Below, in pieces: positions 3,001-22,124 of a stretch of 23,351 nucleotides of DNA (position 1 is the first letter of the stretch; the number at the start of each line of letters is the position of its first letter). The DNA is from a virus: positions 1 to 23,351 of IMG/VR virus record IMGVR_UViG_3300034092_000620; one strand, written 5' to 3'. The position numbers and the translations under genes are program-made. Below the pieces are notes generated by a model. That model did no database searches. It was not told the DNA's origin and worked only from the letters and a program-made list of their open reading frames with translations.

Positions 3001-3585
3001 AGAGATCGCACCTTATACACACCTAATGGAACAACATCTTTAAATTGGACGGATGATACTTTTTTAGATTCAAATGTTTATCAACGTGATTATAAATCTG
3101 CCGTTATACAAAACGCAGTATCAAATAACTATAACATTCCATATGGGTCATATTTAGGGGATGTAATTGAAGTAGATGGTTCTACGACCTTTATGGATGC
3201 AGCAGTAACAGATGGAAATTTAGTTTATTTAGATACTAACGCCACTTGGTATCCTGTTAATCAAGCGGCAAGTGGGGCCACTTTCCTATTAGGTATTGCA
3301 CATAACGTATATGCTCCTGGTGGAACAGGGTATGTTTTACTAGAAGGACATGTTGTAATTGATGATACATCATTCTCAGGACCAAATGTGCAAGGTGCGG
3401 ATCATGGTTTACCAATATATATTAGAGATGGAACAACTCAGGGTCTTATGTCAACAGTCGTTCCTACTACGACTGGTGGACCAAATATAGTAAGAGTGTT
3501 AGGTCATTGTTACCAACAAAACTCAGGAACAGCAACACAATGGATGATGAAATTTAGACCATCAAATGATTGGATAGAAATATAA
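1..3585 (+). CDS. Collagen-like modular tail fibre protein (5' end outside window)
   Basis: The reading frame is open from base 1, so the gene starts upstream; the first in-window ATG (118) lies inside a domain and is not the start. At least 1194 codons are visible. Order: beta-rich module (1-408); Gly-X-Y tract 1 (409-1083); an adaptor with VLTSNGSGGIVAES and a globular beta domain (1084-1386); tract 2 (1387-1959); a second copy of the first beta-rich module (1960-2475); short tract 3; a second adaptor with VLTSDGSGGIVAET; seven SVDW-type repeats; and a C-terminal domain ending in WMMKFRPSNDWIEI. The triplets are almost only GTS and GTN, without proline. This architecture is typical of phage fibres: extended shafts between trimeric knobs, with the C-terminus probably contacting the host. 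There is no signal peptide or membrane segment in view. The fibre role is inferred from architecture; the exact virion position is unknown. The next gene starts one base after the stop. Confidence 0.8.
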   Translation, partial: TLTATGGGTQLIGSFSTIIGDPGITTIPSGNWNFENYVSMSSNGGTPNLYADIYIRTTGGTETLIGSNSAVPHPITDGTLVELYLHSVPVSATTVNISDRIVVKFYATSLGGRTMTCYFEDATIAQVTTSLSPFIAGTSGTDGTSGTNGTSGTSGTNGSSGTNGTNGTSGTNGTSGTNGTSGTNGTSGSSGTNGTDGTSGTNGTSGTNGTSGTNGTNGTNGTNGTSGTNGTNGTSGTNGTSGTNGTNGTSGTNGTNGTSGTNGTSGTNGTNGTSGTNGTSGTNGTNGTSGTNGTSGTSGTNGTNGTSGTNGTNGTSGTNGTSGTNGTNGSSGTNGTSGTNGTNGTSGTNGTSGTNGTSGSSPAVPGSDNQVLTSNGSGGIVAESLLTFDGTKLSVLYQAGDEGGEILLNKPVTNTTISGTGVTFDIWQDRIRFFEQGGTARGAFLDITACAAGVGTNLLTSAGTSGTNGTSGTNGTNGTSGTNGTNGTSGTNGTNGTSGTNGTSGTNGTNGTSGTNGTSGTNGTSGTSGTNGTSGTNGTNGTSGTNGTSGTNGTNGTNGTSGTNGTSGTSGTNGTSGTNGTSGSSGTNGTNGTSGTNGTSGTDGTNGTSGTNGTSGTSGTNGTSGTNGTSGTNGTNGTSGTNGTSGTSGENGISAGQTYYFNESQNSDVSGYKTLSTEPSTATTQTVTTNLLGSQQNVLVSDYITPQLGFSVIPGGVQRFHLHYLKPASNDDIDAYVEIQLADSSGTTIGPTITSNISLIGWVSAVIPVEVNVDIVLPTTTIDPTNRMIVRLYLSNNDATAHSVVYYTEGNSYYSFVVTSVGAIAGTSGTSGTNGTSGTSVSVPGLNNEVLTSDGSGGIVAETNLIFSGSQLSVTGTVVTYGFALPNIDTSTGYLTTSTPMVTSTSIDWLSRIAYDVSSTSSINWTSRYLTDSYPITSVDWETKYLNAYDLTTSGATLSVDWNSRSLYSFRPLPMPTSTLSVDWQNRTLNDSGGISSVAWRDRTLYTPNGTTSLNWTDDTFLDSNVYQRDYKSAVIQNAVSNNYNIPYGSYLGDVIEVDGSTTFMDAAVTDGNLVYLDTNATWYPVNQAASGATFLLGIAHNVYAPGGTGYVLLEGHVVIDDTSFSGPNVQGADHGLPIYIRDGTTQGLMSTVVPTTTGGPNIVRVLGHCYQQNSGTATQWMMKFRPSNDWIEI
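409..1083 (+). repeat. Collagen-like coding tract 1 (about 75 Gly-X-Y triplets)
   Basis: An unbroken series of Gly-Thr-Ser, Gly-Thr-Asn and occasional Gly-Thr-Asp or Gly-Ser-Ser triplets. The protein is nearly periodic (18 or 27 bases) but the DNA is not: all four Gly codons and all four Thr codons are mixed, so exact DNA repeats stay short. The tract is visibly richer in G+C than the flanks. Stops are absent from several frames, which creates long false ORFs on both strands. Every GTN triplet followed by GT makes an Asn-Gly-Thr sequon. Confidence 0.95.
1387..1959 (+). repeat. Collagen-like coding tract 2 (about 63 triplets)
   Basis: Same Gly-Thr-Ser/Asn grammar as tract 1, with the same scrambled synonymous codons. 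It ends in a slightly degenerate sequence (GTSGENGIS) before the second beta-rich module. Probably a second shaft segment of the same fibre. Confidence 0.95.
2476..2520 (+). repeat. Collagen-like coding tract 3 (five triplets)
   Basis: A short Gly-Thr-Ser/Asn stretch joins the second beta-rich module to the second GSGGIVAET adaptor. It looks like a contracted version of the longer tracts, since it sits at the same junction type (AGTSGT at the module end, then a VPG adaptor). Confidence 0.85.
2710..3075 (+). repeat. Seven SVDW-type protein repeats in the fibre
   Basis: Degenerate repeats of about 14-24 residues carry the core S-[VIL]-[DNA]-W followed three residues on by R/K and then an aromatic or hydrophobic residue plus Leu. 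Visible cores are SIDW, SINW, SVDW, SVDW, SVDW, SVAW and SLNW. The spacing and alternating polarity suggest a beta-strand-turn repeat forming a fibrous stem before the C-terminal domain. The fold is inferred. Confidence 0.8.
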
Positions 3586-3946: not shown

Positions 3947-6886
3947 TTATCTGTTATCTATATAGATGATTACTTCACTATAGTATTCTATAAAATGATC
4001 ATTCCATAGATCCCATTTAATATCTACACCATCTACGGAGAAAACTTGTATGTTATCAAACTGAGTTAAGATATTATCTCTAAACCATCTAAATTTACAT
4101 TCGTGGTAATTTGAATCGTTATTTAAGTGAAACTCAGTAACAATTTTTGGAATTGTTTTTAAAAACTCAATGTTACTTTGTTGGAAGACATCATATTCCC
4201 CACCTTCACAATCACATTTTAAAAAATCAATATTATCAATTTTGTATTCATCTAAGAACTCTTTAAAACTAAATGTGGGAACTATTTCTGTCATTTCATC
4301 CCAAGTGATTTCAATTTTCTTTTTATCTGTAATCGCCCCTTGAATGATCTTTACATTTTCTTGACCCACATTCTTTTTTAGGATTTCTATTTGGTGACTT
4401 ATTGGCTCAACAACATAACATTGTTTTGGGTTTTTTGGTAATATCTTATATGTAAACGGACCTAAAGATGCTCCTAAATCTACAACAATATCCCCTTCCT
4501 CAACTTCAAAAAATCTTTCATAGGTATTACCTTCAAATATTTCTTCCTCTGCTTGTTTAATATACCAGTCACTTCTTCCCCCCCAATCAAATGAGACCTC
4601 ATCAATTTTTTCTTCCATTACTTCTTTGTTAATTATTTTATTTATTTCTTTAATAACCATATCGGAACTTATTTCTTTTGTACATTCAAACATCCGAGTT
4701 GTGTTTTTGTGTAAGGGACACCAATTCCAATCACCGGCATCTAACCTATCTGAGTTAAAACATCCGTGACAAACACTTTCGTTAATAACTCTATATGTGT
4801 CTAAAGTTGTTTCTGCCCATTTCTCACTAAACCCTGAAATCAAAACAATAGGTAATTTACAAGCCCAAGCCAACCAAGATAGTCCAGAACCTAAACCAAT
4901 AAAAAACTCACAACTTGATAGGTCATCAATTACTTCTTGTAGGTTACCTCCTTTAAAAATTGTTACACCTTCAGGATAATGGTTATTCATATATCCATCA
5001 CCTTCTTTAGAATAGACCATACATTCATATCCCAAATTATTAAGATGGTCTATAACCGTTTGCCATCCGTCAGGGTTGTTCCAATATTTTGATTGTGCCG
5101 TTGAGTGAAACCCAATACCCACTTTTTTCTTTTTAGGTGTGTTAGGTAATTTTAATAGTGGTCTAACTTCTTCATAATCTAAACCTAATATATCCGTTGC
5201 CGTTTTTTGTAATGGCATTTTTTTAAAATCAAATGGGTGTTTGTTTGCGTCAAATTTACCATCTTCATTATAAAACCAACCTAAATTATATTGTGCGTGT
5301 ATGTTTGGTATTAATTCGCCAGGTTCAACAAACTCAATTTCAGGATACTGATCTTTAAACAAACTATTAAGGAATGTCGATACTATCGGTTTGCAACCAT
5401 GTTTTTTTCTAAATACCTCACAATAAGGAACCCAAGCCATTGTATCACCTAATGATTTTGATCCGAATGAAATATATACTCTCTTATCTTTTAGATCTAA
5501 TGTCTCATCATAAATTACTTCACCATTTTCTTCAACTGTTGTTCTCCATTTAATGAAATATTCTTTATTTAATTTAACCCAACTATTAATTGACAATTCA
5601 TTTTGATATGATATTTCATTTTTATCATCATAATATTTAATATTCAATTTGTTTTCTGTGGTTCCTTGTATTTCAAAATAAGGTTGGGTAACATAATGTC
5701 TAACAAAGGTATAATCTTTGGTTAAAGGTTTGTTTTGGGTAATGTTTATATTTGTAACTGCGTTATAAAAATTCAATAAATCTTCACCAAATGTATCATC
5801 AGGTAATATTTTATAAACGTCCTTATTTTCAATAAGTTCAACCAATTGTTTTGATATGTTTTTAACATCACCTTCTATTGGTGTTATATATCCGTCAAAC
5901 ATACCCATGTATTGTGGTAAATCTCTTGCAAGGATTTTCATTCCATAGTTGATTGATTCTCTAACAACCAACGGATTACATTCCCAAGTTGAGTTAAACA
6001 TTAAAACATCGCAAGCCGTCATGAATTTCTCAACGTCAGATCGTTCCCCCCATACTTTAACATTAGAAGGAAGGTCTTTCATAATAGGACCCCAATAGTC
6101 TTCAAAGTTTGGAGCTTGGTTCCCAATAAAATGAAATTCAATATCTGAGTTTGATTCAATTAATTCTTTTGCAACCTCAACACCTTCACCTTGATTTTTA
6201 CCACTTGTCCATAACCCAACATTAAGTACGTGAGTTTTAAACATATCCAAACCAAGTTCATTTCTTACTTTAATTTTTTCAATAAGTGGTACTTGATTAA
6301 AATCACCATAGATTTCATTCTCCTCTAAAATTTTAGTTACCTTATTCTCAATTGGGTATAACGATAAAAACTTAATTGGTGTTTCATTTAAAAACGTTTC
6401 CTTTAAATGATAAGGGGTAACAAAACAATATGCCTCAGGATTGAATTTTTTATGTGTTTGCGGATTAAACCAAACATTATGACAAGTCTCAACCATTTTC
6501 CAAGTCCTATCATTTGAATAAAGTTGATTTAACAATGGTAGCGGAATTTTATTAAAACTTTCAAACCCTTCAACCATCTCTTCTGAATGGACAATATCAA
6601 TATGATTGTTTTTAATAATATCAATTAACTCATATTTTCTTTTTGTGTTACTTGTATCCCCTAAACTAAAAAAATGACCTTCACCCAATATATCAATTAT
6701 TTTATCTCGTTGAACAACATATGTATTACTAAACTGAGAATACTCAACCAAAAAGATTTCAATTTGGTCTTTGAATTTTTGAAGTTCTTGAATTCTTTTT
6801 AATACGAATTGGGGTTGTCCTCCAGTTGAAAGATGAGGTGTAAGATATAATAGTTTAATTTTTTTCATACTATAAAAATAAAACAT
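3947..6886 (-). CDS. Three-domain GT4 glycosyltransferase / BAHT heptosyltransferase / FkbM methyltransferase
   Basis: A 979-residue fusion. Residues about 7-390 are a GT-B glycosyltransferase (GT4-like), with LYLTPHLSTGG at the start and an E-x7-E pair (E302, E310). Residues about 400-750 match the bacterial autotransporter heptosyltransferase (BAHT) pattern: SFGSKSLGDTMAWVPY near 474-488, STAQSKYWNNPDGW, and four cysteines (706, 709, 723, 735, the last in FECTK) like the metal-binding Cys set of TibC. Residues about 760-979 are an FkbM methyltransferase, with SAM motif VVDLGASLG (801-809) and DFLKCDCEGGEYDV (887-900). Expected role: transfer of one or two sugars to a protein or glycan, with O-methylation of a sugar. 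Domain identities are strong; donor and acceptor are unknown. An in-frame ATG at 6868 is an equally good start, since GT4 enzymes usually begin with that strand. Transcribed divergently from the GT9 gene across 33 bases. Confidence 0.85.
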   Translation of the reverse strand: MFYFYSMKKIKLLYLTPHLSTGGQPQFVLKRIQELQKFKDQIEIFLVEYSQFSNTYVVQRDKIIDILGEGHFFSLGDTSNTKRKYELIDIIKNNHIDIVHSEEMVEGFESFNKIPLPLLNQLYSNDRTWKMVETCHNVWFNPQTHKKFNPEAYCFVTPYHLKETFLNETPIKFLSLYPIENKVTKILEENEIYGDFNQVPLIEKIKVRNELGLDMFKTHVLNVGLWTSGKNQGEGVEVAKELIESNSDIEFHFIGNQAPNFEDYWGPIMKDLPSNVKVWGERSDVEKFMTACDVLMFNSTWECNPLVVRESINYGMKILARDLPQYMGMFDGYITPIEGDVKNISKQLVELIENKDVYKILPDDTFGEDLLNFYNAVTNINITQNKPLTKDYTFVRHYVTQPYFEIQGTTENKLNIKYYDDKNEISYQNELSINSWVKLNKEYFIKWRTTVEENGEVIYDETLDLKDKRVYISFGSKSLGDTMAWVPYCEVFRKKHGCKPIVSTFLNSLFKDQYPEIEFVEPGELIPNIHAQYNLGWFYNEDGKFDANKHPFDFKKMPLQKTATDILGLDYEEVRPLLKLPNTPKKKKVGIGFHSTAQSKYWNNPDGWQTVIDHLNNLGYECMVYSKEGDGYMNNHYPEGVTIFKGGNLQEVIDDLSSCEFFIGLGSGLSWLAWACKLPIVLISGFSEKWAETTLDTYRVINESVCHGCFNSDRLDAGDWNWCPLHKNTTRMFECTKEISSDMVIKEINKIINKEVMEEKIDEVSFDWGGRSDWYIKQAEEEIFEGNTYERFFEVEEGDIVVDLGASLGPFTYKILPKNPKQCYVVEPISHQIEILKKNVGQENVKIIQGAITDKKKIEITWDEMTEIVPTFSFKEFLDEYKIDNIDFLKCDCEGGEYDVFQQSNIEFLKTIPKIVTEFHLNNDSNYHECKFRWFRDNILTQFDNIQVFSVDGVDIKWDLWNDHFIEYYSEVIIYIDNR

Positions 6887-6919
6887 ACATTTTAATTGTG
6901 AAGTTCATATCATTATAGA

Positions 6920-7867
6920 ATGAAAGATGTTTGTGTTGATGTGTTAGGATGTAGATCGTTAGGGGATACCTTAGCCGTTACACCAACTTTAAGAAAACTT
7001 TATAATTCTTACGGTAAAAAAATATCTGTCGCAACTCATCACCCCGAAATTTTTAAAAACAATCCTTACGTAGATAATATTTTTAATGAAATTACAGACG
7101 ACATTAAAAATGATTATGAAGTATTTGAATCCTTTAATATTGGATACCACCCAAACGGTGTTTGTTATAAACATAACGCAATGGATATTAGACAATTTCA
7201 TGCGGTTAATTTAGGGTTTATGTTGACCAGAGATGAAATGTCAATGGACTATTTTCCTGATGAGGTAGAATTAATTGAGGGGTTACCTGAAAAATATGTT
7301 TTAATTCACCCCGTTCAAAATTGGAATTCAAGAACATGGGATGAAAAAAAATGGCAAATGTTAACAAAACTCTTAAATGAAAGAGGTATTGCCGTTATTT
7401 CTGTTGGAAAAGATTCATCAGAACTTGGTGGTTCAAATGTGGATAAACCCGTTTTTAATTTTAATATTGATATTGGTTTGAATTTAATGAACCAAACAAC
7501 CTTATCTCAAACATGGTGGCTAATTAATAGTGCAATGTGTTTCATTACTATGGATTCAGGATTACTTCATTTAGCAGGAACAACAGACTCAGAAATAATC
7601 CAACTTGGAAGTTCAATACATCCTCAATTTAGAGCACCATATAGAAAAAATAATCAAGGTCATAAATACCATTATGTTCTTGGTGGTTGTGGTTTACATT
7701 GTGCATCAGATATTAAATACGGAGTTAAAGAATGGAAATCAATACAAGGTATACCATCACTCGTTAATTGTTTAGAAAGAAAAGAAACATTTGAATGTCA
7801 CCCCAACCCAATTATTATTTATAATAAAGTTTTGGAAATATTAGATTTAGAATATTTATGTAGATAA
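6920..7867 (+). CDS. GT9-family (heptosyltransferase-like) glycosyltransferase
   Basis: A 315-residue GT-B enzyme of the ADP-heptose transferase type. Visible marks are the N-terminal LGCRSLGDTLAVTPTLRKL, the central VLIHPVQNWNSRTWDEKKW strand and loop, and the C-terminal MDSGLLHLAG nucleotide-sugar motif (D212, H217). A C-terminal cluster of four cysteines (257, 261, 284, 293) includes FEC, echoing the BAHT cluster in the neighbouring fusion, so it may also bind a metal. No membrane segment is seen, so it should be cytoplasmic. It begins 33 bases from the divergent fusion gene and is followed after 15 bases by a small gene in the same direction. Sugar and acceptor cannot be read from sequence; the family is clear. 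Confidence 0.82.
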   Translation: MKDVCVDVLGCRSLGDTLAVTPTLRKLYNSYGKKISVATHHPEIFKNNPYVDNIFNEITDDIKNDYEVFESFNIGYHPNGVCYKHNAMDIRQFHAVNLGFMLTRDEMSMDYFPDEVELIEGLPEKYVLIHPVQNWNSRTWDEKKWQMLTKLLNERGIAVISVGKDSSELGGSNVDKPVFNFNIDIGLNLMNQTTLSQTWWLINSAMCFITMDSGLLHLAGTTDSEIIQLGSSIHPQFRAPYRKNNQGHKYHYVLGGCGLHCASDIKYGVKEWKSIQGIPSLVNCLERKETFECHPNPIIIYNKVLEILDLEYLCR

Positions 7868-7882
7868 TCACATTTTAATTAC

Positions 7883-8182
7883 ATGGCAAACCAAATTCAA
7901 ATAAATTCAATATCTGGAACTTCACCATTTGATATCTATGTATGTGATGTAACCATATCGTATTGTTTTTTTGTTTCAGGAATCACCACAACACCATATA
8001 CGTTTAATGTTCCTCCACCTTTAGAGTCTATAACACCAATTATTTTAAAAATTATAGATGCTAATGATTGTGAAAAAATATTCTTACTATCTTGTGGGGA
8101 AATATACGGAAAAGAATTTGAAGGTTTTGAAGTATTTTTATTTCAAGACTCATCAATTTTTTTATTCGAAGGTCCTCCTTAA
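7883..8182 (+). CDS. Small hypothetical Cys-containing protein in the glycosylation island
   Basis: A 99-residue protein. Its pattern is alternating hydrophobic strands with cysteines in DIYVCD, YCFFV, DCEKIF and LLSCGE, a proline-rich turn (FNVPPPLES) and an acidic-hydrophobic tail (FEVFLFQDSSIFLFEGPP). This looks like one compact beta-sandwich. No catalytic motif, signal peptide or membrane segment is seen. It sits 15 bases after the GT9 gene and 55 bases before the next glycosyltransferase; that gap is T-rich with only a weak 4-bp stem. Small proteins of this style are common beside structural genes in phages of this type, so a virion or decoration role is guessed, not shown. Confidence 0.65.
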   Translation: MANQIQINSISGTSPFDIYVCDVTISYCFFVSGITTTPYTFNVPPPLESITPIILKIIDANDCEKIFLLSCGEIYGKEFEGFEVFLFQDSSIFLFEGPP

Positions 8183-8237
8183 ACTATTAATATTCATATT
8201 TTTTTCTTTTCTATTATTATTATGGAAATAACCAAAT

Positions 8238-9482
8238 ATGAATACAATATTTATACAAATCGCCTCCTATCGTGATCCCCAACTTAGTTTAACAATCTCA
8301 GATTGCATTAAGAACTCTAAATACCCCAAAAATTTGGTATTTGGTATTTGTAATCAATATCACCCTGACGATGAATTTAATATTGATGAATATCAGAATG
8401 ACAAAAGATTTAGAATTGAAAATGTTTTATATTCAGATTCTAAAGGGGCTTGTTGGGCTCGTAACTTATTACAACAAAGATATAGTGGAGAAACTTACAC
8501 ATTACAAATAGATTCTCATATGAGATTTTCTCCCGATTGGGACATTGAGATGATTAAAATGGTTAAACAACTTCAAAAGAAAGGACATAAAAAACCTTTA
8601 TTAACGGGTTATGTTTCATCATTTGATCCCGAAAATGATCCACAGGGAAGAGTAAATGAACCATGGAGAATGTCTTTTGATAGATTTACACCTGAAGGTG
8701 TTGTGTTCTTTTTACCTGAGGTTATCCCTGGATGGAAAAAATTAAAAGAACCTATCCCTTCCAGATTCTATTCCGCACATTTTTGTTTTACATTGGGGCA
8801 ATTTGTCAATGAAGTCCAACACGACAAAGATTATTATTTTCACGGAGAAGAAATTTCTATTGGCGTAAGATCCTTCACATATGGGTATGATTTATTTCAT
8901 CCTCACAAAGTTTTAATTTGGCACGAATATACTCGAAAAAACAGAACAAAAAGTTGGGATGACGATAAAGATTGGCATAAGAAAAACACAGCTTGTCATA
9001 TAAAGAACAGACAACTTCTTGGTGTTGATGGAGAAGTTTATGATGGAGACTACTCACAATACTTTGGTAATGAAAGAACCATTAGAGATTACGAAAGATA
9101 TTCCGGAATTTTATTTTCTAAAAGAGCTGTTCAACAAGATACTTTAGATAAGAAATACCCACCCAACGATTACCCATATTCGTCCGAAACAGAATGGATT
9201 AATTCTTTTGCCACAATATTTAAACATTGTATAGACATAAATTTAAATAGTGTTCCAGAAACAGATTATGATTTTTGGGTTGTTGCCTTCCATAACGCAA
9301 AAGATGAAACAATATATAGACAAGATGCTGACGCAAACGAAATTTTAAGAATAAAAAATGATCCCGATGGATATGGAAAAATATGGAGAGAGTTTAATGC
9401 AACCGAAATACCAAAATATTGGGTGGTATGGCCACACTCCATATCTAAAGACTGGTGTGAAAGAATAGTAGGTAATTTATGA
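8238..9482 (+). CDS. GlcNAc-transferase-like glycosyltransferase (PF11397-type)
   Basis: A 414-residue protein whose first ~260 residues follow the polypeptide alpha-GlcNAc-transferase pattern known from Dictyostelium Gnt1. It starts with IFIQIASYRDPQLSLTISDC, has GACWARNLLQQRY (70-82), and carries an acidic metal-binding motif, D92-S-H94, in LQIDSHMRF. A later FHGEEISIGVRSFTYGYDLF block with a downstream HEYTR fits the acceptor/catalytic half. The last ~120 residues add a region with DFWVVAFHNAKDETIYRQD that I do not recognise. Known members glycosylate proteins in the cytoplasm; here the acceptor is unknown. The stop overlaps the next start by four bases (ATGA), so the two products are probably coupled. 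No Shine-Dalgarno sequence precedes the ATG. Confidence 0.75.
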   Translation: MNTIFIQIASYRDPQLSLTISDCIKNSKYPKNLVFGICNQYHPDDEFNIDEYQNDKRFRIENVLYSDSKGACWARNLLQQRYSGETYTLQIDSHMRFSPDWDIEMIKMVKQLQKKGHKKPLLTGYVSSFDPENDPQGRVNEPWRMSFDRFTPEGVVFFLPEVIPGWKKLKEPIPSRFYSAHFCFTLGQFVNEVQHDKDYYFHGEEISIGVRSFTYGYDLFHPHKVLIWHEYTRKNRTKSWDDDKDWHKKNTACHIKNRQLLGVDGEVYDGDYSQYFGNERTIRDYERYSGILFSKRAVQQDTLDKKYPPNDYPYSSETEWINSFATIFKHCIDINLNSVPETDYDFWVVAFHNAKDETIYRQDADANEILRIKNDPDGYGKIWREFNATEIPKYWVVWPHSISKDWCERIVGNL

Positions 9483-11146
9483 TAACATTAGTAACGGGTT
9501 TATGGGACATAGGTAGAGGTGACCTTAGTGAAGGTTGGTCAAGATCGTACCAACATTATCTTAATAAGTTTGAGGACTTACTTAAGGTAGAGAACAATTT
9601 AATCATCTTTGGTGATGAGGAATTAGAAAAGTTTGTTAAAGAGAGACGACAAGACCACAACACCCAATTTATTGTTAGAGACTTAACTTGGTTTAAAAAT
9701 AATGAATTTTATAATCAAATACAATCAATAAGGACAAACCCAAAATGGTATAATCTTGCGGGGTGGTTAACGGACTCAACTCAAGCAAAATTGGAAATGT
9801 ATAATCCATTGGTTATGTCAAAAATGTTTATCCTTCACGACGCTTTGCTCTTGGATAAGTTTGTCTCAGAAAAACTATATTGGATTGATGCTGGATTATC
9901 AAATACTGTTAATTTAGGTTATTTCACAAAAGACAATGTATTACCAAATATCGATAATCTTTTTGATAAGTTCACGTTTATTTGTTTTCCATATCAAGCC
10001 AACACAGAGATACACGGATTTGATATTAAACAAATGGATAAATACACTAGAGATAGAGTTGATAAAGTTTGTCGTGGAGGTTTCTTTGGTGGACCAATTG
10101 AGGACATAAGACAAATGAATACCTTGTATTATAATTTAATTAAAGATACATTATCAAAAGGTTTAATGGGAACAGAAGAAAGTTTATTCTCAATTCTATT
10201 ATATAACAACCCAACCTTAATTGATTATGTTGAAATAAATGGTGACGGATTATTGTATAAGTTTTTTGAAGATGTTAAAAACAATGATGTAAAAATCAAA
10301 ACAATTTCAAGACCGAACGAAGTTATTAAGAAAACAAATGGTGGTGTTGGTTTATATGTTATAACATTTAACAGCCCAAAACAATTTGAAACCTTAATTA
10401 AAAGTATGTTAGATTATGATCCGGACTTTATTAATAAGACAAAGAAGTTTTTATTGGATAACTCCACAGACCTATCAACAACTCCGAGATATAAAGAATT
10501 GTGTGAAGAGTATAACTTTGAACATATTAAGAAAGATAATATAGGTATTACTGGTGGTAGAGTGTTTGTTGCCGAACATTTTGATGAAACTGATTTGGAC
10601 TTTTATTTTTTCTACGAAGACGACATGCTATTTTATTCAAAACCAAACTCAAAATGTAAGAACGGATTTAGCAGAAATTGTGATAAATTATATGACAAAG
10701 CTCTTCATATTATGAAGAAAGAGGAATTAGATTTTCTCAAGTTAAACTTTACGGAATTTTTTGGTTCGCACGAAAAACAGTGGTCGTGGTATAACGTGAG
10801 CAATGAATTTAGAAAAGAACATTGGCCGTTTAATCAAAACTTGCCGGTGCAAGGTCAAGACCCAAACTCACCAAATTTAGAATTTAAAAACATTAAATCA
10901 CATAATGGGTTATCATATGCGACTGGTGAAATCTTTTTAAGCAATTGGCCGATCGTGTTAAATAGAGACGGCAATTACAAATGTTATTTAGAAACAAAAT
11001 TTGCCCATCCTCACGAACAAACGGTGATGAGTCAATGTTATCAAGAAACCGTTAAGGGTAGAGTTAAGTCGGCAGTTTTATTACTTACACCAACAGAACA
11101 CAACCGTTTCGATTTTTATGAGGCACATTTGAGAAAAGAATGTTAA
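9479..11146 (+). CDS. HtrL/YibB-like domain fused to a second glycosyltransferase-like domain
   Basis: A 555-residue protein. Residues 1 to about 285 resemble the HtrL/YibB family, known from lipopolysaccharide gene clusters: LVTGLWDIGRGDLS at the N-terminus, the NPLVMSKMFIL block, YWIDAGLSN (134-142) and FFGGP. Residues about 290-555 resemble a GT-A fold transferase: GLYVITFNSPKQFETLIKSM opening strand and helix, then FFYEDDMLFY with an acidic triplet E380-D381-D382 that could hold the metal and nucleotide sugar, and a conserved-looking HPHEQTVMSQCY near the end. The biochemical role of HtrL itself is not established, so the reaction is unknown. It overlaps the upstream GlcNAc-transferase-like gene by four bases and closes the glycosylation island. 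It could act on the fibre or on host surface glycan. Confidence 0.68.
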   Translation: MITLVTGLWDIGRGDLSEGWSRSYQHYLNKFEDLLKVENNLIIFGDEELEKFVKERRQDHNTQFIVRDLTWFKNNEFYNQIQSIRTNPKWYNLAGWLTDSTQAKLEMYNPLVMSKMFILHDALLLDKFVSEKLYWIDAGLSNTVNLGYFTKDNVLPNIDNLFDKFTFICFPYQANTEIHGFDIKQMDKYTRDRVDKVCRGGFFGGPIEDIRQMNTLYYNLIKDTLSKGLMGTEESLFSILLYNNPTLIDYVEINGDGLLYKFFEDVKNNDVKIKTISRPNEVIKKTNGGVGLYVITFNSPKQFETLIKSMLDYDPDFINKTKKFLLDNSTDLSTTPRYKELCEEYNFEHIKKDNIGITGGRVFVAEHFDETDLDFYFFYEDDMLFYSKPNSKCKNGFSRNCDKLYDKALHIMKKEELDFLKLNFTEFFGSHEKQWSWYNVSNEFRKEHWPFNQNLPVQGQDPNSPNLEFKNIKSHNGLSYATGEIFLSNWPIVLNRDGNYKCYLETKFAHPHEQTVMSQCYQETVKGRVKSAVLLLTPTEHNRFDFYEAHLRKEC

Positions 11147-15596: not shown

Positions 15597-15944
15597 TTAC
15601 CCAACCTTCATACCATCACTTGATAGTATCATCCAAATTCCCTGAACGTGTTGTAATTCAACACAAGCACCCCTATCTATAGCAATTTCATCCCAATCTT
15701 CGTCAATACGATTTAAGTCTGGAATAATAATACAATTTGTTAAAGTTTTAATTTTAATTTTATCTGTTGTTGTGGAATCTAATTTTATTTTACAAGTATT
15801 AACATCTCTAACAATAATTAGAGTTTCTCCACGAGTAGAATAAAAATCATCACTAACAACTATGGTTTCAAAAGTATCTAACACTAAAGACCTGTCTCCT
15901 CTAAATACGGTTTTTCTAATTGGTTTTTCTCTAACTATTGGCAT
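15597..15944 (-). CDS. Small beta-rich hypothetical protein downstream of the neck gene
   Basis: A 115-residue protein, last in the minus-strand unit and starting four bases after the stop of the gp13-like gene. It consists of short alternating hydrophobic strands (LVLDTFETIVVSDDF, ETLIIVRDV, CIIIPDL) and ends with CVELQHVQGIWMILSSDG, a pattern seen at the ends of small phage structural or fibre-like domains. It has no catalytic motif, signal peptide or membrane segment. Tight coupling to a neck gene suggests a head or neck decoration/completion role, but I do not recognise a family. Confidence 0.65.
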   Translation of the reverse strand: MPIVREKPIRKTVFRGDRSLVLDTFETIVVSDDFYSTRGETLIIVRDVNTCKIKLDSTTTDKIKIKTLTNCIIIPDLNRIDEDWDEIAIDRGACVELQHVQGIWMILSSDGMKVG

Positions 15945-15948
15945 AAAA

Positions 15949-17079
15949 TTAAATTACATATATCTGTCTTGGCATTGCCCTAAATTTCAGTTGTTTGTTT
16001 AGGTTTTCGGCAAGTAAGGCCTCTCTTTCCATAACCTTTTCTGGTTTAAGTCTTGTTAATCTTCCTTCAGGTCCAATAAGTTCGTCAATTAATTTTGTCT
16101 TTTCGTCTTTAGCTTCAGTTGCAAGTGCCGCATAATCCATAGTTAAATCACCACCATCGGCAGTTTTTAAGTTTCCACTAAACTTACCACGAACTCTTGA
16201 TAATGTTTCTTTACAATAGGCAATAAACCACCTTCTTATCCAAACCTGAGCCGGATTATTTAACTTATACCAACTTAATTTATCAAATGGAACGTCAGAT
16301 GGTAATTTAATAATGTCGGGGTTATCAGCCAAACATTTGTCCCTATCTCCCTGACCTAAGTCATAATACCAATACCAAACTCTACCTTTCATTAATTCCG
16401 CACTACCAAAATCAAATCTACCACCCGGTGTATTTAAAAGATGTAATGCCTTTTTACCTTCAGGTAAAGCGGTAATGTAATATGTTAAATCGCCTCGTAA
16501 AACTCTTTTTTGTATGTTAATCTCTTGCATTCTTAACAACATATCAAACACAGGTGTTAAGAAATAATTTACTCCTGAATTACCCATTTGAGCAAGTCCA
16601 CCACCACCACCAAGACCAGTTCCTTCACCGACACCACCAAAACCACCAACCCCAAAGATTGCATTATCTAAGGTTGATTGGGTAAACCATAACACTTCGT
16701 TAATTTCACGACCTGCGGGTATTTCATATATTTGTTGATTTTTAACCAACTGCACATAATCTTTTTTAATTACCCAATCACCACCAGCTTGTAAACCAAC
16801 AATTTTTGAGTATGCGTAAGTATATCTGTCTTCATAATTTAGACTTTTAGTTAAGAACGCTCTTGAGAGAGATTGTGTATCCAAATTAAGGTTATCTAAC
16901 GCTGTCCATTGAGCTTCAATTAACCAATCCTGAACATATTGTGAGTAGTCGTCTATTGAGAATTCCAATAATGTGTCCATCATTTCATCTTCTAATTCAA
17001 CGGATCTTAAAGGGGCACCCAATAAGTGTCTAATCTTTTGATAAAGTTTACTTCTTTCCGGTTCGTTTATAATTGACAT
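15949..17079 (-). CDS. Putative T4 gp13-like neck (head completion) protein
   Basis: A 376-residue protein. The N-terminus, KLYQKIRHLLGAPLRSVELE, followed by an acidic helix ending in DDYSQYVQDWL, matches the layout of T4-type gp13 (short helix, LGxP, then helix). The strand YVQLVKNQQIYEIPAGREINEVLWF fits the family's beta core. The C-terminal VWIRRWFIAYCKETLSRVRGKFSGN, with a following DGGDLTMD and acidic helix, fits the gp13 C-terminal helix region. Such proteins join the filled head to the tail. An insertion at 143-161 is almost pure glycine and may be a flexible loop. The assignment is by pattern and is moderate. The gene lies 42 bases downstream of the SOD fusion and four bases upstream of a small gene, suggesting co-transcription. 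Confidence 0.55.
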   Translation of the reverse strand: MSIINEPERSKLYQKIRHLLGAPLRSVELEDEMMDTLLEFSIDDYSQYVQDWLIEAQWTALDNLNLDTQSLSRAFLTKSLNYEDRYTYAYSKIVGLQAGGDWVIKKDYVQLVKNQQIYEIPAGREINEVLWFTQSTLDNAIFGVGGFGGVGEGTGLGGGGGLAQMGNSGVNYFLTPVFDMLLRMQEINIQKRVLRGDLTYYITALPEGKKALHLLNTPGGRFDFGSAELMKGRVWYWYYDLGQGDRDKCLADNPDIIKLPSDVPFDKLSWYKLNNPAQVWIRRWFIAYCKETLSRVRGKFSGNLKTADGGDLTMDYAALATEAKDEKTKLIDELIGPEGRLTRLKPEKVMEREALLAENLNKQLKFRAMPRQIYVI

Positions 17080-17093
17080 AAGACTTTTTTAAT

Positions 17094-17101
17094 ATAAATA
17101 T
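17094..17101 (-). promoter_or_regulatory. ATATTTAT element upstream of the gp13-like gene
   Basis: Read on the minus strand, the octamer ends 14 bases before the ATG at 17079, the same spacing as at 11175. It could provide an internal promoter allowing the neck gene to be expressed apart from the upstream helicase and SOD fusion. Confidence 0.3.
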
Positions 17102-17121
17102 CTTTATAATTAATTTCTTAA

Positions 17122-19332
17122 CTATTGACAGATAACCTTACCCTTTAAGGTTGGTGGTACTTGTAGTTCAATTGGTTCTAAAATGTCTTTATCAACAAAT
17201 TTATACGCATTTATTTTTGTGTATTTGGGATCTATTCTAAACCTTATGGATAATCTTTTTTCGTCACAACCTCTTTGACCTTTATTAGACCAATAAAGTT
17301 CTATGAATTCTGTAGGTATTAAAATATTGTTTTCATAAAAAATCCCCGACATTTTACTTTTTACCTTTTGTAAAAAATTTTCAGACAATTGATTTTTTTC
17401 TAACCATATAAAGATTCTTTCTATTAACTTATTATATAATTCAATATATGCCGGTTTTTGATTAAGTATTGAACTCTCCTTAAAAATTGAAAAGAATTCA
17501 GATAAATAACTATCAATAAATGGGTCCATTTTTTTAACCTCAAAAAAAGAACCTTTAGGATAAATAACATTTCCTTCTTCATCTTTAAAGTCTGACTTAC
17601 TTTCTAAATCTGCCTTTATGTAATGTGACCCACTTTTAAATGAATTTGATAAACAATTAGTTATCCTAAAAAAATGGTAGTTTATTGTTTCTTGACCCGA
17701 TTGAATTTTAACTAATGTATCAAATAATTTTTCTTTTGCGTCATCAGAACAAGCGTAATTTAATTGCAATCTTGTTGATTTTTTATTGAAGAAATCCCCA
17801 ACAAATCTATTTTCGTATTTTTGATGTTCCAAGTATCTTGCGTTACGCAAAAGAGAATCTAAATTTTCTGGTGCTATGGAAGTATTTTTTTGTTTTTTTA
17901 AAACTCTAAAAGTTTCTGTTTCATTAAAATTTTTATCTTTTATAAAATCAGAAATTAATTCTAAAAAGTTTATAGTTTTTTCTTGGTTTTGTAATGAAAG
18001 ATTTATAATTTGAGGGAATGTCCCAACAATCTTCTTACTAAAAAAATTATCTAACATTAGTATGGAATGTTCTAATCTTTGAATAAGATTTTGATCTGTA
18101 AGTGTGTCTCTAAAAGCTTTAAGTTTACAAAACGGAGAGTCGTTAATTTTTTTTAATTCGGTATATTCACACAAATAGGTTATTTTCGATTGTTGTCTTA
18201 ATGCAATCTCATTTATCTTAACTATTCTAGATTCTTTTAATGGTTTGTTTTTTGTTCTTAACACATAAAGTTGGTTAACAAATTCCCAATTAACACTATC
18301 CCAAAACTTTTTAATATATTCATCTCTTTTGTTTTGATATTTTAAATAGTAAGCGTGTTCCCAAACATCAAGACCAAGAAGTGGATATCCACCACCTTTA
18401 ACTATATTCATTAATGGATTGTCCTGATTTGGTGTGGACATAATTTTTAACTCATTATTTTTTGATAAATATAACCAAGCCCATCCAGAACCAAAACGTT
18501 CTTTTGCTGCTTCATTAAACTCATCCTTCATTTTTTTTATGTTTCCAAAATCCAATGTAATTTTTTTTAGAATATCCCCTTTAGGAAGTTGTTTCTTTGG
18601 TGAGAGCATTTTCCAAAACAATGCGTGATTAAAAGCACCACCCGCATTATTTCTAACTTTGTCATCAAACTTACTAATTGTTTTAATTATTTCTTCTAAC
18701 TCTATATCACCATCTTTGTTTTTCAAAGCGTCATTTAATTTTTTAACATAACCCTTATAGTGTTTGTTATAGTGAATGTCCATAGTTTTGGAGTCTATGA
18801 ACTTACTTAATGACGAATAAGAATAAGGTAATTTTTCAATACCGATTTTTTTCATTTCAAGAATTAAGTTTTCCTTAACCCCACCTTTTTCTATTAATAA
18901 AAGTTGTTCATTAATAATTCCCAACCTTTTTTTAATTCCTTTATCCTCAAACATCATATCTCGGATTTCGGGAAATTTCTTTTCAAACATTTTAATTAAT
19001 TGACCAGCAAATGCGTTTGCCTCATCTTCATTTTTACCTCCAATATCTGGGCCATGTTCTCTGTTTAATATTGTTAATTGGTATTCGTGAACCCACTCGT
19101 GAGCTAAAGTTCTTAATATATCACGATTAAGTCGTCCTTTTGATAGTATTTTTAATGTTGAATCCATTGTCCTACTTCCTGTGGACATTTCACTATCTCT
19201 AACCCCTAAAAAATTAATTTTTAAATCATTCCTTAATGGGTATTTTGTTTGTAAGAATGCGATAAATTTCTTAGTAAGAACTTTATCTTCCTTGGTCATA
19301 TCGCATTTTATATGTTTGATAGAAACTTTCAT
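17122..19332 (-). CDS. Metallopeptidase-superoxide dismutase fusion with unknown C-terminal region
   Basis: A 736-residue protein. Residues 1 to about 125 resemble a phage zinc metallopeptidase: GRLNRDILRTLAHEWVHEYQ contains HEWVH (78-82), with a candidate third ligand in NEDEANAFA (E102 or E104). Residues about 165-358 are a full Fe/Mn superoxide dismutase: MDIHYNKHYKGYV (H187), NNAGGAFNHALFW (H236), FGSGWAWL, STPNQDNPLM, GLDVWEHAYYLKYQNKR (D322, H326). All four metal ligands and the active-site Tyr are present, and the AGG segment is manganese-type. Residues about 370-736 are lysine-rich, mostly helical-looking and unrecognised. Expected activities are superoxide dismutation and proteolysis; neither is proven. 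No signal peptide. It lies 20 bases after the SNF2 gene and 42 before the neck gene, so it may be expressed with virion proteins. Confidence 0.85.
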   Translation of the reverse strand: MKVSIKHIKCDMTKEDKVLTKKFIAFLQTKYPLRNDLKINFLGVRDSEMSTGSRTMDSTLKILSKGRLNRDILRTLAHEWVHEYQLTILNREHGPDIGGKNEDEANAFAGQLIKMFEKKFPEIRDMMFEDKGIKKRLGIINEQLLLIEKGGVKENLILEMKKIGIEKLPYSYSSLSKFIDSKTMDIHYNKHYKGYVKKLNDALKNKDGDIELEEIIKTISKFDDKVRNNAGGAFNHALFWKMLSPKKQLPKGDILKKITLDFGNIKKMKDEFNEAAKERFGSGWAWLYLSKNNELKIMSTPNQDNPLMNIVKGGGYPLLGLDVWEHAYYLKYQNKRDEYIKKFWDSVNWEFVNQLYVLRTKNKPLKESRIVKINEIALRQQSKITYLCEYTELKKINDSPFCKLKAFRDTLTDQNLIQRLEHSILMLDNFFSKKIVGTFPQIINLSLQNQEKTINFLELISDFIKDKNFNETETFRVLKKQKNTSIAPENLDSLLRNARYLEHQKYENRFVGDFFNKKSTRLQLNYACSDDAKEKLFDTLVKIQSGQETINYHFFRITNCLSNSFKSGSHYIKADLESKSDFKDEEGNVIYPKGSFFEVKKMDPFIDSYLSEFFSIFKESSILNQKPAYIELYNKLIERIFIWLEKNQLSENFLQKVKSKMSGIFYENNILIPTEFIELYWSNKGQRGCDEKRLSIRFRIDPKYTKINAYKFVDKDILEPIELQVPPTLKGKVICQ

Positions 19333-19337
19333 TATTG

Positions 19338-19345
19338 ATAAATAT
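19338..19345 (-). promoter_or_regulatory. ATATTTAT element upstream of the SOD fusion
   Basis: Read on the minus strand, the octamer ends five bases before the ATG. The 18 bases ATATTTATCAATAATGAA, which include the start codon, are identical to those at the start of the homing endonuclease gene at 21162. Confidence 0.35.
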
Positions 19346-19352
19346 CAAGAAT

Positions 19353-21116
19353 TTAGTATTTCACCGAATGTATCTTATTAAGAATAAGTTCAACAATATC
19401 TCCCTTTTCATCTAAGTCATCACCCATAACGGTATTGATGTTTTTTTTCTTATCATTTACCATATCATATATGACGCTCTCAATTGAGTTAATAAATAAT
19501 GGATAATAAATTGATACAGAATTATTTTGACCATATCTGTAAGCCCTATCTTCCCCTTGAGCTAGATCGCCAGGAACAAACGATAGGTCATTCATAATTA
19601 CGGCTTCAGCAGCAGTTAAAGTAATTCCTACTCCGGCAGCTTTTAAATTTCCAACAAAAACATTTATTTTATCGTTCTCTTGGAATTGATCAACCGCATG
19701 TTGTCGTTGTGGTTTTGAAGTTGATCCGTCTAATCTCACGGCTTGTTTTCCAAAATGGTCGGCAATTTTATTTAATGTGTCGGTAAAATTGGTAAATATA
19801 ATAACTTTTTTCCCCTGTTCTATAATATTTTCGGCTAACTCAATAGTGTCGTTTATTTTTTCTTCGGCAATCACTTGACGAACTTTCATTAACTTACTAA
19901 ACTGAACCGTTAATGAACTACTCTCGTTTGGATTTTTATTATACCATTCATAATATTCCCCCATCAATCCTTCATAAAGTTTTGATTTTAATTTTAGGTA
20001 AACTGGTGTTATAATTTTTTCTGGTAAGTCTAAAACTTCTGTCTTTAATCTTCTTAATACTTGTCGAGAAGTTCTATCTCTTAACTCTTCTAAATTGGTT
20101 GCTCCGGCAACATTCCATATTTTTCTTTTTCCGGCAGTAAATTGGTAACCACCACAATATCGTATTGCATATGCCATCCAGTTTTGTGATACGGGACTAT
20201 CAATTATTGATAACAGGTTGAAATAATTCATTGGTCTATTTGTCATCGGCGTTCCTGTTAATAACCATACTCTTTTACAATTTTTCGTAAACGAATTAAC
20301 TAATTTGGATCGTATGCTTGTTCCGTTAGAAACATAGTGAGCCTCATCTAAAATTATGAGGTCAAAATTTCCTTGGCTTATCAATGAGTTATCTTTATCC
20401 TTTATATCATAAAAGTTTTTTAGGATATCATAATTTATGATAACAAAATCGTGTTCGGTTGAAAACTTTTTTCCCTCAGCAATATAAACTGAACGATCCG
20501 TATAGTTCTCAATCTCACGTTGCCAGTTAATTTTTAAAGATGCGGGACAAACAATTAAAATCTTTTTTACGTTACACTCTAAAGCGGCGATAATGGTTGC
20601 GGTTGTTTTACCCAATCCCATATCGTCCGCAAGAATAAATCTTTTTGAACCGGCAAGTTTTTCTATTGCCTCTTTTTGGTGAGATAATGGGGGTCTGTGA
20701 TCGTATTTGGAATAATCAACCTCAACTCTTTCAACATTATGTGTTTTAATTATGGAAGATTTAGGAACCCAAAACTCTGTTAATGGATCTTTTTCAAAGA
20801 ACTTACCCCATATATGATACGACTTTTCCTTTTCTACTAATAATTTTTCAATATAAATTTTTTCAGGAGTTTCCAATAGGTATCTCTCTTCTGCAAACTT
20901 TTTTGCGAAGTATGTGTCTAAGTCAACCCATTTACGAGCAACTTTTGGAGTTGTATTATAATAGTTAACGATATAGTCTGATTGTGACCTTGTTGGGTAA
21001 AACTTTTTTGAACTTAGTTTTTTATTTTGCAAATATAGGATGTGGTTATTTGCCCCACTATATGAGTCTAACAAATCGAGAGCTCTATTCTCTATGATTG
21101 ATTGGACATTTTCCAA
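19353..21116 (-). CDS. SNF2-family helicase/translocase (SMARCAL1-like)
   Basis: A 587-residue superfamily 2 ATPase. Residues 1-130 are a phage-specific N-terminus. The motor then shows LSHQKEAIEKL, Walker A ADDMGLGKT (163-171), motif II DEAH (257-260), TGTPMTNRPMNYF (287-299), a second lobe with GSTSKPQRQHAVDQF, GVGITLTAA, and motif VI QGEDRAYRYGQ. This compact layout resembles SMARCAL1-type annealing helicases, which remodel forks and pair complementary strands, so a role in replication or recombination is likely. The start must be a TTG at 21116: an in-frame TAA lies at 21126-21128 and no internal ATG occurs before the Walker A motif. First gene of the minus-strand unit, divergent from the homing endonuclease across 45 bases. 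Confidence 0.88.
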   Translation of the reverse strand: MENVQSIIENRALDLLDSYSGANNHILYLQNKKLSSKKFYPTRSQSDYIVNYYNTTPKVARKWVDLDTYFAKKFAEERYLLETPEKIYIEKLLVEKEKSYHIWGKFFEKDPLTEFWVPKSSIIKTHNVERVEVDYSKYDHRPPLSHQKEAIEKLAGSKRFILADDMGLGKTTATIIAALECNVKKILIVCPASLKINWQREIENYTDRSVYIAEGKKFSTEHDFVIINYDILKNFYDIKDKDNSLISQGNFDLIILDEAHYVSNGTSIRSKLVNSFTKNCKRVWLLTGTPMTNRPMNYFNLLSIIDSPVSQNWMAYAIRYCGGYQFTAGKRKIWNVAGATNLEELRDRTSRQVLRRLKTEVLDLPEKIITPVYLKLKSKLYEGLMGEYYEWYNKNPNESSSLTVQFSKLMKVRQVIAEEKINDTIELAENIIEQGKKVIIFTNFTDTLNKIADHFGKQAVRLDGSTSKPQRQHAVDQFQENDKINVFVGNLKAAGVGITLTAAEAVIMNDLSFVPGDLAQGEDRAYRYGQNNSVSIYYPLFINSIESVIYDMVNDKKKNINTVMGDDLDEKGDIVELILNKIHSVKY

Positions 21117-21161: not shown

Positions 21162-22124
21162 ATGAATAAGTTTGAATTATATGGATTATTTTGTCCCGAC
21201 ACAGATCAATTAAAATATATTGGTATAACAAAAAATGGATTACAAAAAAGATTAAAAAACCATTTAAAAAAACCAACAAATAAATTTATTTCAAAATGGT
21301 TCAGTTCTTTGAGTGATGAGAATAAAATCCCAATAATTAGACAAATAAAAGAATGTAATACCTACGATGATTTACTACAATCTGAAATATATGAAATTTC
21401 AAAATATAGAAAATTAAACTTTGATTTATATAATCTTACCGACGGTGGAGATATCAATCCTATGTTGGGTAAAACACATAGTGAAGAATCTAAAAAAAAA
21501 ATATCTCTAATACATAAAGGTAAAAAATTATCAGAAGACGAAAAGTTAAAAAGAAAAGAACGCATCAAAGAATTATGGTCAGATACAGAGTGGTCAGAAA
21601 AAATTAAGAAAAAAATGAGTGATAACACCAAAGGAGAAAAAAATCCTAACTGGAGAGGTGGTTTTAGAAATTTAACTTGTTTGTGTGGTAATAAAAAAAA
21701 CCATTATTCTAAAACTTGTTTGAAATGTAGGGATTGTTATGGTAAAAAAAATAATTTTTTTAATAAAAAACATAGTAAAGAAACCTTATCAATTTTAGCG
21801 GAAAAAAGTAAAAAGTTTGGTAATGAAAATCCTAATTTTAAATATGATATTAAAAGTGATGAACTATATGATTTATATGTTGTAAAAAATAAAACCATAA
21901 TTGAAATTAGTAATTTATTTAATTGTCATATAAACACAATAAATAAAAAATTGAGACAATATAAAATATATAAACCAAAATCTAATATTTATAATTTAGT
22001 GGTTGATGAGATAAAAAATCATTTAATAAATGAATTAAATTATGTTCAGATTGGTAAAATCTATGGTTGTAGTAATAAAATCATACATAAATTTGTAAAA
22101 AAAAATAACATATATGTCAAATAG
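21162..22124 (+). CDS. GIY-YIG homing endonuclease with NUMOD3 motifs
   Basis: A 320-residue free-standing endonuclease. The N-terminal nuclease domain has ELYGLF and YIGIT (Y7-G8, Y19-I20-G21), the conserved arginine (R30) and candidate catalytic E75. DNA-binding elements follow: a NUMOD3 motif GKTHSEESKKKIS (103-115), a second copy near NKKHSKETLS, a five-cysteine cluster (173, 175, 186, 189, 192) that may bind zinc, and two helix-turn-helix-like segments (about 243-270 and 283-316). Such enzymes cut a cognate site in related phages lacking the gene and spread by repair. It shares 11 bases with the next gene and uses the same 18-base start region as the SOD fusion. The composition is more A- and Lys-rich than its neighbours, fitting a recent arrival. 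Confidence 0.9.
   Translation: MNKFELYGLFCPDTDQLKYIGITKNGLQKRLKNHLKKPTNKFISKWFSSLSDENKIPIIRQIKECNTYDDLLQSEIYEISKYRKLNFDLYNLTDGGDINPMLGKTHSEESKKKISLIHKGKKLSEDEKLKRKERIKELWSDTEWSEKIKKKMSDNTKGEKNPNWRGGFRNLTCLCGNKKNHYSKTCLKCRDCYGKKNNFFNKKHSKETLSILAEKSKKFGNENPNFKYDIKSDELYDLYVVKNKTIIEISNLFNCHINTINKKLRQYKIYKPKSNIYNLVVDEIKNHLINELNYVQIGKIYGCSNKIIHKFVKKNNIYVK

Follow-up and report, generated by a model that had tools for sequence, protein, structure and literature searches.

Introduction

As described by Iyer et al. 2017 (PMC5512222), polyvalent proteins join a zincin-like metallopeptidase (MPTase) and exchangeable effector domains within a single phage-encoded polypeptide. Such proteins occur in phages and conjugative elements, their MPTases fall into 12 clades, and self-cutting was proposed for the members that bear an MPTase (PMC5512222). 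A second described system of relevance is that of the T4 internal head proteins (IPI-III, Alt), which are directed into the head by short capsid targeting sequences, N-terminal stretches of 10-20 residues ending in (L/I)xE, while the T4 protease gp21 cuts after (L/I)-x-E (PMC9026906).

We analysed a stretch of 23,351 nucleotides of viral DNA (IMG/VR record IMGVR_UViG_3300034092_000620; hereafter the window), in which one gene, here called pepSOD, joins a metallopeptidase to a complete Fe/Mn superoxide dismutase (SOD), so that two or more enzymatic domains lie in one phage polypeptide. pepSOD shares with the polyvalent proteins its several enzymatic domains, the zincin, the swappable effectors and, as we infer, delivery with the DNA and proteolytic separation. 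It differs from them in that its zincin and SOD form a fixed pair followed by a variable cargo, and in that the (L/I)xE sites of its linkers point to a prohead protease, beyond the embedded zincin alone. By design pepSOD belongs near the polyvalent proteins; delivery, which is part of that definition, is a presumed step here. The paper describing them nowhere uses the word superoxide (PMC5512222).

The likeness to the T4 internal head proteins lies in short peptides ending in (L/I)xE, in the many small tagged proteins, and in a gp21-type protease and a major capsid protein (MCP) encoded within the same phages (relatives). Unlike these T4 proteins, pepSOD has no N-terminal tag, and its candidate sites lie between domains, as in a polyprotein. 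Because a tag was found within the first 25 residues of 0/99 cores, we did not file pepSOD as a T4 internal protein.

The initial annotation, made from the sequence alone, knew of no described architecture of this kind. For the SOD this holds (no fusion in the isolated phages searched, no mention of superoxide in PMC5512222); the general design of a zincin plus effectors is already known. As far as our search went, no report places an SOD in virions as cargo or in a multidomain effector of phages. The SOD as a conserved module and the (L/I)xE|S linker and tag scheme both appear to be new, judged against the open-access papers that we searched.

The pepSOD gene and its surroundings

pepSOD lies on the minus strand among these genes:

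15597..15944, minus strand: small virion-structural-like gene, downstream (PHROG virion structural protein, weak match, E 0.01)
15949..17079, minus strand: neck / head-tail adaptor gene, gp13-like, directly downstream of pepSOD (PHROG Ad2, E 4e-8)
17122..19332, minus strand (19332→17122): pepSOD gene, 736 aa, a single uninterrupted ORF
19353..21116, minus strand: UvsW/SNF2-type helicase gene, directly upstream of pepSOD with a 20-nt gap; conserved neighbour

The helicase–pepSOD–neck gene order is retained in long contigs of relatives. The initial annotation had proposed, with no strand given, a fusion of an HExxH peptidase with a complete SOD, followed by a neck gene, in a phage. Our results confirm the fusion, with one ORF, Pfam SOD domains and about 100 homologues, and the match to head-tail adaptor Ad2 identifies the neck gene. 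The phage origin is borne out by the neck gene and the SNF2-type helicase, by a family-B polymerase that is also encoded in the window, and by longer contigs of relatives, which encode gp23, a gp21-type protease and the tail sheath.

The modules follow one another in the order zincin peptidase, linker, Fe/Mn SOD, linker and C-terminal domain of type A:

18943..19332, minus strand: peptidase domain, residues 1-130 (AF2 secondary structure and residue invariance)
19087..19101, minus strand: HEWVH catalytic motif, residues 78-82 (H78, E79 and H82 invariant in 99/99 cores)
18841..18942, minus strand: peptidase-SOD linker, residues 131-164 ((L/I)xE at E142, E148 and E159; low pLDDT)
18262..18840, minus strand: complete Fe/Mn SOD, residues 165-357 (Pfam, PDB match, model, invariance)
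18193..18261, minus strand: SOD-cargo linker, residues 358-380 (candidate prohead-protease sites LKE|S, 365-368, and INE|I, 373-376)
17125..18192, minus strand: type A C-terminal cargo domain, residues 381-736 (356 aa, no known family; pLDDT mostly 75-90)

A family of fused proteins in metagenomes

A protein scan of IMG/VR yielded 146 confirmed stretches, 80 of which were kept, and a scan with the peptidase profile yielded 389, again with 80 kept. Altogether, the peptidase–SOD order is found in 100 complete proteins, all distinct and drawn from many metagenomes, and 99 distinct peptidase–SOD cores served as the set for residue invariance. In addition, near-identical pepSOD genes (99–100%) were found on three other contigs (L002-L004) from other metagenomes. 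An assembly error, which the initial annotation had named as a possible refutation, or a frameshift joining separate genes is therefore ruled out as the origin of the fusion, and we regard its probability as negligible: the same join recurs in independent assemblies from many metagenomes, in about 100 complete and distinct proteins.

No fusion was found in the collection of isolated phages searched, where no record spanned 80% of pepSOD and the matches covered the SOD alone or, in cyanophage S-SRM01, the peptidase alone. Nor did any appear in GTDB genomes, in which an SOD-profile scan, run on two short patterns and non-exhaustive, gave 18 relatives, all stand-alone SOD ORFs of 171–274 aa. Stand-alone SODs of the PA5oct/MIJ3 group and of Vibrio phage 2.275.O are, like pepSOD, phage-encoded Fe/Mn SODs, but they share about 30% identity with it in a match limited to the SOD region, and the Vibrio one is a single-domain gene.

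In a tree with SODs of Flavobacteriales and other bacteria, the fused SODs form one clade (support 98/90), with long branches elsewhere, outside that clade. They are about 43–52% identical to the sampled Flavobacteriales SODs. A recent acquisition from Flavobacteriales hosts is thus unsupported; the phylogeny against Flavobacteriia that the initial annotation had suggested gave no sign of a recent pick-up, the fused SODs clustering apart.

Median dN/dS values (Nei–Gojobori) were 0.05 for the SOD, 0.09 for the peptidase and 0.20 for linker 131–164; the ratios are approximate because dS is near 1. SOD has been fixed across a large environmental phage group, which implies that superoxide matters at some stage of infection or in the particle.

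An intact and probably active SOD domain

Pfam recognises Sod_Fe_N (PF00081) at residues 166-244 with 74.2 bits (cut-off 27; E 1.2e-20), followed by Sod_Fe_C (PF02777) at residues 250-354 with 135.3 bits (cut-off 20.9; E 8.9e-40). The closest solved relative in a phmmer search against the PDB is the Sphingobacterium MnSOD 6gsc (E 1.5e-62). Consistent with this, the AlphaFold model of the domain matches solved SODs with Z of about 16, and its identity to solved MnSODs is about 42-49%.

The metal ligands H187, H236, D322 and H326 are unchanged across 99/99 distinct cores, and so are H191, Y195, Q303, E325 and Y329, which we take, from motif and spacing, to be His30, Tyr34, Gln146, Glu170 and Tyr174 of E. 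coli MnSOD, residues of the second shell and dimer. Judged from its residues, the active site is of Mn type, with Gln in the C-terminal domain. Like the Mn-type Fe/Mn SODs, pepSOD keeps all ligands and second-shell residues, but its SOD is embedded in a larger phage protein and forms a clade of its own. The four ligands had been assigned correctly in the initial annotation, and the loss of ligands in homologues, which it had named as evidence against its reading, was seen in none of the cores. Its view of an intact, likely active SOD is likewise upheld by Pfam, the 6gsc match, the invariant sites and dN/dS; we conclude that the fused SOD is intact and probably active.

A zincin core in the peptidase domain

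The AF2 model of the peptidase consists of a strand, a helix, three strands, the H78-E79-x-x-H82 helix and a helix bearing E102 and E104, the latter two within an NEDEA motif (residues 101–105) that follows HEWVH. E102 and E104, together with H78, E79 and H82, are present in 99/99 distinct cores. The phage MPTase zincin has been described as a sheet with an N-terminal helix and two C-terminal helices carrying HEXXH and Glu (PMC5512222), and the secondary structure and motif order of the pepSOD peptidase agree with that description. As modelled, residues 1-130 are a zincin core. Pfam gave weak matches below the cut-offs, to SprT-like (best E 0.008, in 2/7 members), M78 (13-14 bits; cut-off 22) and DUF6055, and a PDB sequence search with the peptidase profile gave no match.

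Exchangeable C-terminal cargo

The segment behind the SOD varies among the 99 cores: 21 have none and are about 364 aa long, 25 carry type A, 37 type B, nine type C, five type D, one D plus B and one another domain. The fullest architecture is peptidase–SOD–D–D–B, with 962 aa. On a tree built from the core only, the cargo label changes at least 26 times, compared with a mean of 53 after shuffling, indicating that cargo has been swapped repeatedly, yet non-randomly.

Type B, the commonest, was found at 66 loci in a scan with its profile. Residues E136, D176 and Q190-x-K192 are invariant, and residues of about 125–275 of the model match the SPARDA nuclease domain (Z 8.2), I-Ssp6803I (7.6) and Hjc (7.1). 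The top domain matches (Foldseek, VIA) are PD-(D/E)xK enzymes with Z of 6-8, NhoI among them. Since these Z values alone are middling, the conserved E-D-QxK motif carries weight, and from motif and fold we predict that type B cargo is a PD-(D/E)xK nuclease. This likeness to PD-(D/E)xK nucleases (I-Ssp6803I, the SPARDA nuclease domain, Hjc, NhoI) concerns the fold and the E-D-QxK of the relatives' type B; in contrast, the window's own cargo is of type A and showed no relation to them. A profile comparison of type A with type B gave a probability of 0.1%, and such comparison gave no support for types A and C as PD-(D/E)xK domains.

Pfam and PHROG gave no significant match for ten C-terminal domains, and neither did a PDB sequence search with the type A profile. 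The initial annotation had described the C-terminal 360 residues as of unknown sequence. That no family is found for them stands; what it overlooked is that they are one of several exchangeable cargo types.

An SOD with its own C-terminal extension and no peptidase was found at L224 and L226. Its N-terminus carries LxE[N/S] motifs, and the L224 extension is related to type B (profile comparison probability 92.8%).

Tandem arrays of tagged type D paralogues flank or directly follow pepSOD at five loci (L080, L081, L171, L240 and L251). Further type D copies are fused into pepSOD, so that several stages of gene fusion are visible.

Linkers and an N-terminal tag

Low-confidence linkers separate the folded modules in the AF2 model, with pLDDT <50 at residues 362-380. 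Linker 131-164 evolves fastest within the core; still, E159 is kept in 99/99 and (L/I) at position 157 in 94/99. Behind the SOD, (L/I)xE[SNDEIT] occurs within 35 aa in 77 of the 78 extended proteins, compared with 11% of control windows, and the stricter [LI][KNTS]E[SN] within 22 aa in 62/78, compared with 1.6%. This comparison applies to extended proteins; in the extension-less cores (21/99) it is meaningless, the tails being too short to hold a site. Across whole genomes, internal (L/I)xES shows no strong enrichment; the case for the linkers therefore depends on where the motif lies and on the stand-alone homologues.

Stand-alone homologues of type B start with MKYIFTESQLDILKNKILINED, and those of type D, which form tandem arrays adjoining pepSOD, start with MKIIITES or MKIIITENQ. 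The tag MKRIIRLTESDLARIVRRVINEE or MKIIITESQ opens dozens of proteins in relatives of 272 kb and 224 kb. Matches to the tag of >6 bits numbered 37 in the two genomes, compared with 2 in five shuffled proteomes. A tblastn search of isolated phages with the 23-aa tag gave no match, with a query too short to be informative, and our literature search found no paper on the LTESDL motif.

Across L087-L112, the tag takes the form MKxIIRLTESDLxRIVKRVIxE or MKIIITESQ, sits mostly on unknown proteins and resembles T4 capsid targeting sequences. One tagged protein of 1018 aa (L099:3199-6255, minus strand) contains several internal (L/I)NES or VESES-type separators and is probably another polyprotein. DHH-like phosphoesterase proteins (weak Pfam DHH) with an N-terminal LxES tag were seen at L099:11189-12778 and L103:1587-4094 (minus strand).

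Capsid protease, upstream motifs and host

Two relatives longer than the window contig (G001 and G008) encode an S77 (gp21-type) prohead protease. The N-terminal region of gp23, the MCP, reads NQASFLINE|A or YLINE|A in relatives, where a cut may be placed after the Glu. FLINE|A of these phages is presumably comparable in position to the processed site of T4. The pepSOD linkers resemble such capsid-protease sites, which suggests a cargo that travels inside the virion and is released into the host. The initial annotation had overlooked both this match of the linkers to the capsid-protease rule and the presence of the motif as a tag on many other proteins of these phages.

Two motifs precede gene starts at the locus:

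19338..19346, minus strand: GATATTTAT motif immediately before the start of pepSOD, a putative late promoter or start element
17093..17102, minus strand: GATATTTATA motif upstream of the neck gene

GATATTTAT(A) is found also at the genes for tail tube, sheath, neck and S77, in most cases with 13–25 nt between it and the start codon. TATTTAT lies upstream of pepSOD at 68/74 distinct loci, and a longer form lies upstream of the next gene, again at 68/74. In addition, [ATG]TATTTATA is commoner upstream of tagged than of untagged genes (21/63 vs 68/547, Fisher p = 8e-5).

In the window and in all relatives, GATATTTAT(A) lies close to start codons, often ending about 5-15 nt before the ATG, so transcripts may be nearly leaderless. 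Read as its reverse complement, the motif is similar to TATAAATA, the late promoter of T4.

Flavobacterium phage immuto (41%) and Microcystis phage Mel-JY01 are among the isolates closest by MCP. In each of two genomes, 10 genes are preceded by the Bacteroidota promoter consensus, which we take to be TTTG–N15–21–TAnnTTTG, compared with 0.4 and 0.2 after shuffling. On these sequence grounds the host is likely a member of the Bacteroidota, and the pepSOD phages are probably T4-like phages infecting Bacteroidota. In phage immuto itself, only some N-termini are loosely tag-like, and several of these belong to head-operon proteins.

A candidate packaged polyprotein and its rivals

The architecture, the intact and constrained sites, the repeated exchange of cargo after an (L/I)xE linker and the tag on stand-alone homologues of two cargo types and on dozens of other phage proteins are directly seen. 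The reading that we prefer, and to which its sequence basis gives about an even chance of being right, is that pepSOD is a late, head-packaged polyprotein that would be cut at its linkers and deliver zincin, SOD and exchangeable cargo to the host. The fused protein would be made together with head and tail proteins, as the common upstream motif and the gene order suggest, and would enter the prohead core, as suggested by the motifs that tag and linkers have in common. The gp21-type prohead protease may then cut after Glu in the (L/I)xE linkers, freeing peptidase, SOD and cargo, a step based on the cleavage rule of T4 and on such a site being kept in the MCP of these phages. Once freed, the enzymes would exit together with the DNA and act as infection begins. 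The cargo, which in its commonest type is a predicted nuclease, might attack host or competing DNA, the zincin might cut a host protein or aid processing, and the SOD might remove superoxide that arises as the host is shut down or defends itself; the SOD may in addition shield the genome in the particle. What the SOD does once delivered is a guess. Against packaging, pepSOD sits among neck genes, away from the head-core genes, and its N-terminus, unlike those of T4 internal proteins, bears no tag; moreover, 21/99 cores lack an extension and end in tails with no room for the site, (L/I)xE is a short degenerate motif, and a helix might be what the glutamates of the linkers are kept for. Of the options raised in the initial annotation, a virion-borne form is favoured by the linkers, tags and late-type motif, packaging itself being a conjecture.

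The main rival is a self-processing polyvalent protein with no role for a prohead protease, in which the N-terminal zincin itself cuts the linkers, be it ahead of packaging, within the head or once in the host cell. Nearly all fused proteins have the zincin in front of SOD and cargo, and the design fits that of polyvalent proteins (PMC5512222). However, the peptidase-less SOD with extension also has LxE[N/S] at its N-terminus, and the linker motif obeys the S77 rule and is common to stand-alone proteins lacking a zincin; we consider self-cutting rather unlikely. We also judge it unlikely that pepSOD acts unprocessed in the cytoplasm, as an auxiliary metabolic SOD detoxifying superoxide during takeover, with the fusion serving co-expression and the LxE linkers as spacers. 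Such a role would suit an SOD that is intact and strongly constrained, and stand-alone phage SODs are known in PA5oct-like phages and Vibrio phage 2.275.O. Yet it leaves unexplained both the LxE[S/N] N-terminal tags on stand-alone cargo homologues and the near-universal motif right after the SOD in cargo-bearing proteins, and the upstream motif common with structural genes points to late expression. Finally, the constant place between helicase and neck gene would fit a structural protein of neck or head, in which the SOD and peptidase folds serve as rigid blocks beside the products of the gp13/gp14 neck operon. Yet the catalytic residues of both enzymes, with the second shell, are invariant, which a protein of purely structural function would not require; in addition, many relatives lack the C-terminal part or carry another in its place. 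That the SOD fold is reused as structure, an option which the initial annotation had raised, is hence very improbable, all ligands and second-shell residues being invariant and SOD dN/dS being 0.05.

Beyond the packaged polyprotein, we tentatively consider a wider possibility, somewhat against the balance of probability: a modular capsid-cargo system in which (L/I)TE|S would send dozens of tagged proteins to the prohead and to S77 cutting. Polyproteins would arise from fusion of tagged genes, and pepSOD, the conserved one among them, would inject an active SOD, a protease and a swappable nuclease or other cargo as the phage infects. If true, the capsid-cargo reading would make this the first injected SOD, directed against oxidative stress or oxidative defence. 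Used as a rule, the (L/I)xE|S motif of tag and linkers could also predict packaged, ejected proteins among the hundreds of unknowns in large Bacteroidota-type phages.

Other genes in the window

A homing endonuclease gene (NUMOD3; PHROG homing endonuclease) at 21162-22124 on the plus strand is inserted between helicase and neck/tail genes. Positions 1-3585, also on the plus strand, hold a putative tail-fibre gene with long GTSGTNGTSG collagen-like repeats, adjoined by several glycosyltransferase-like genes at 3947-11146.
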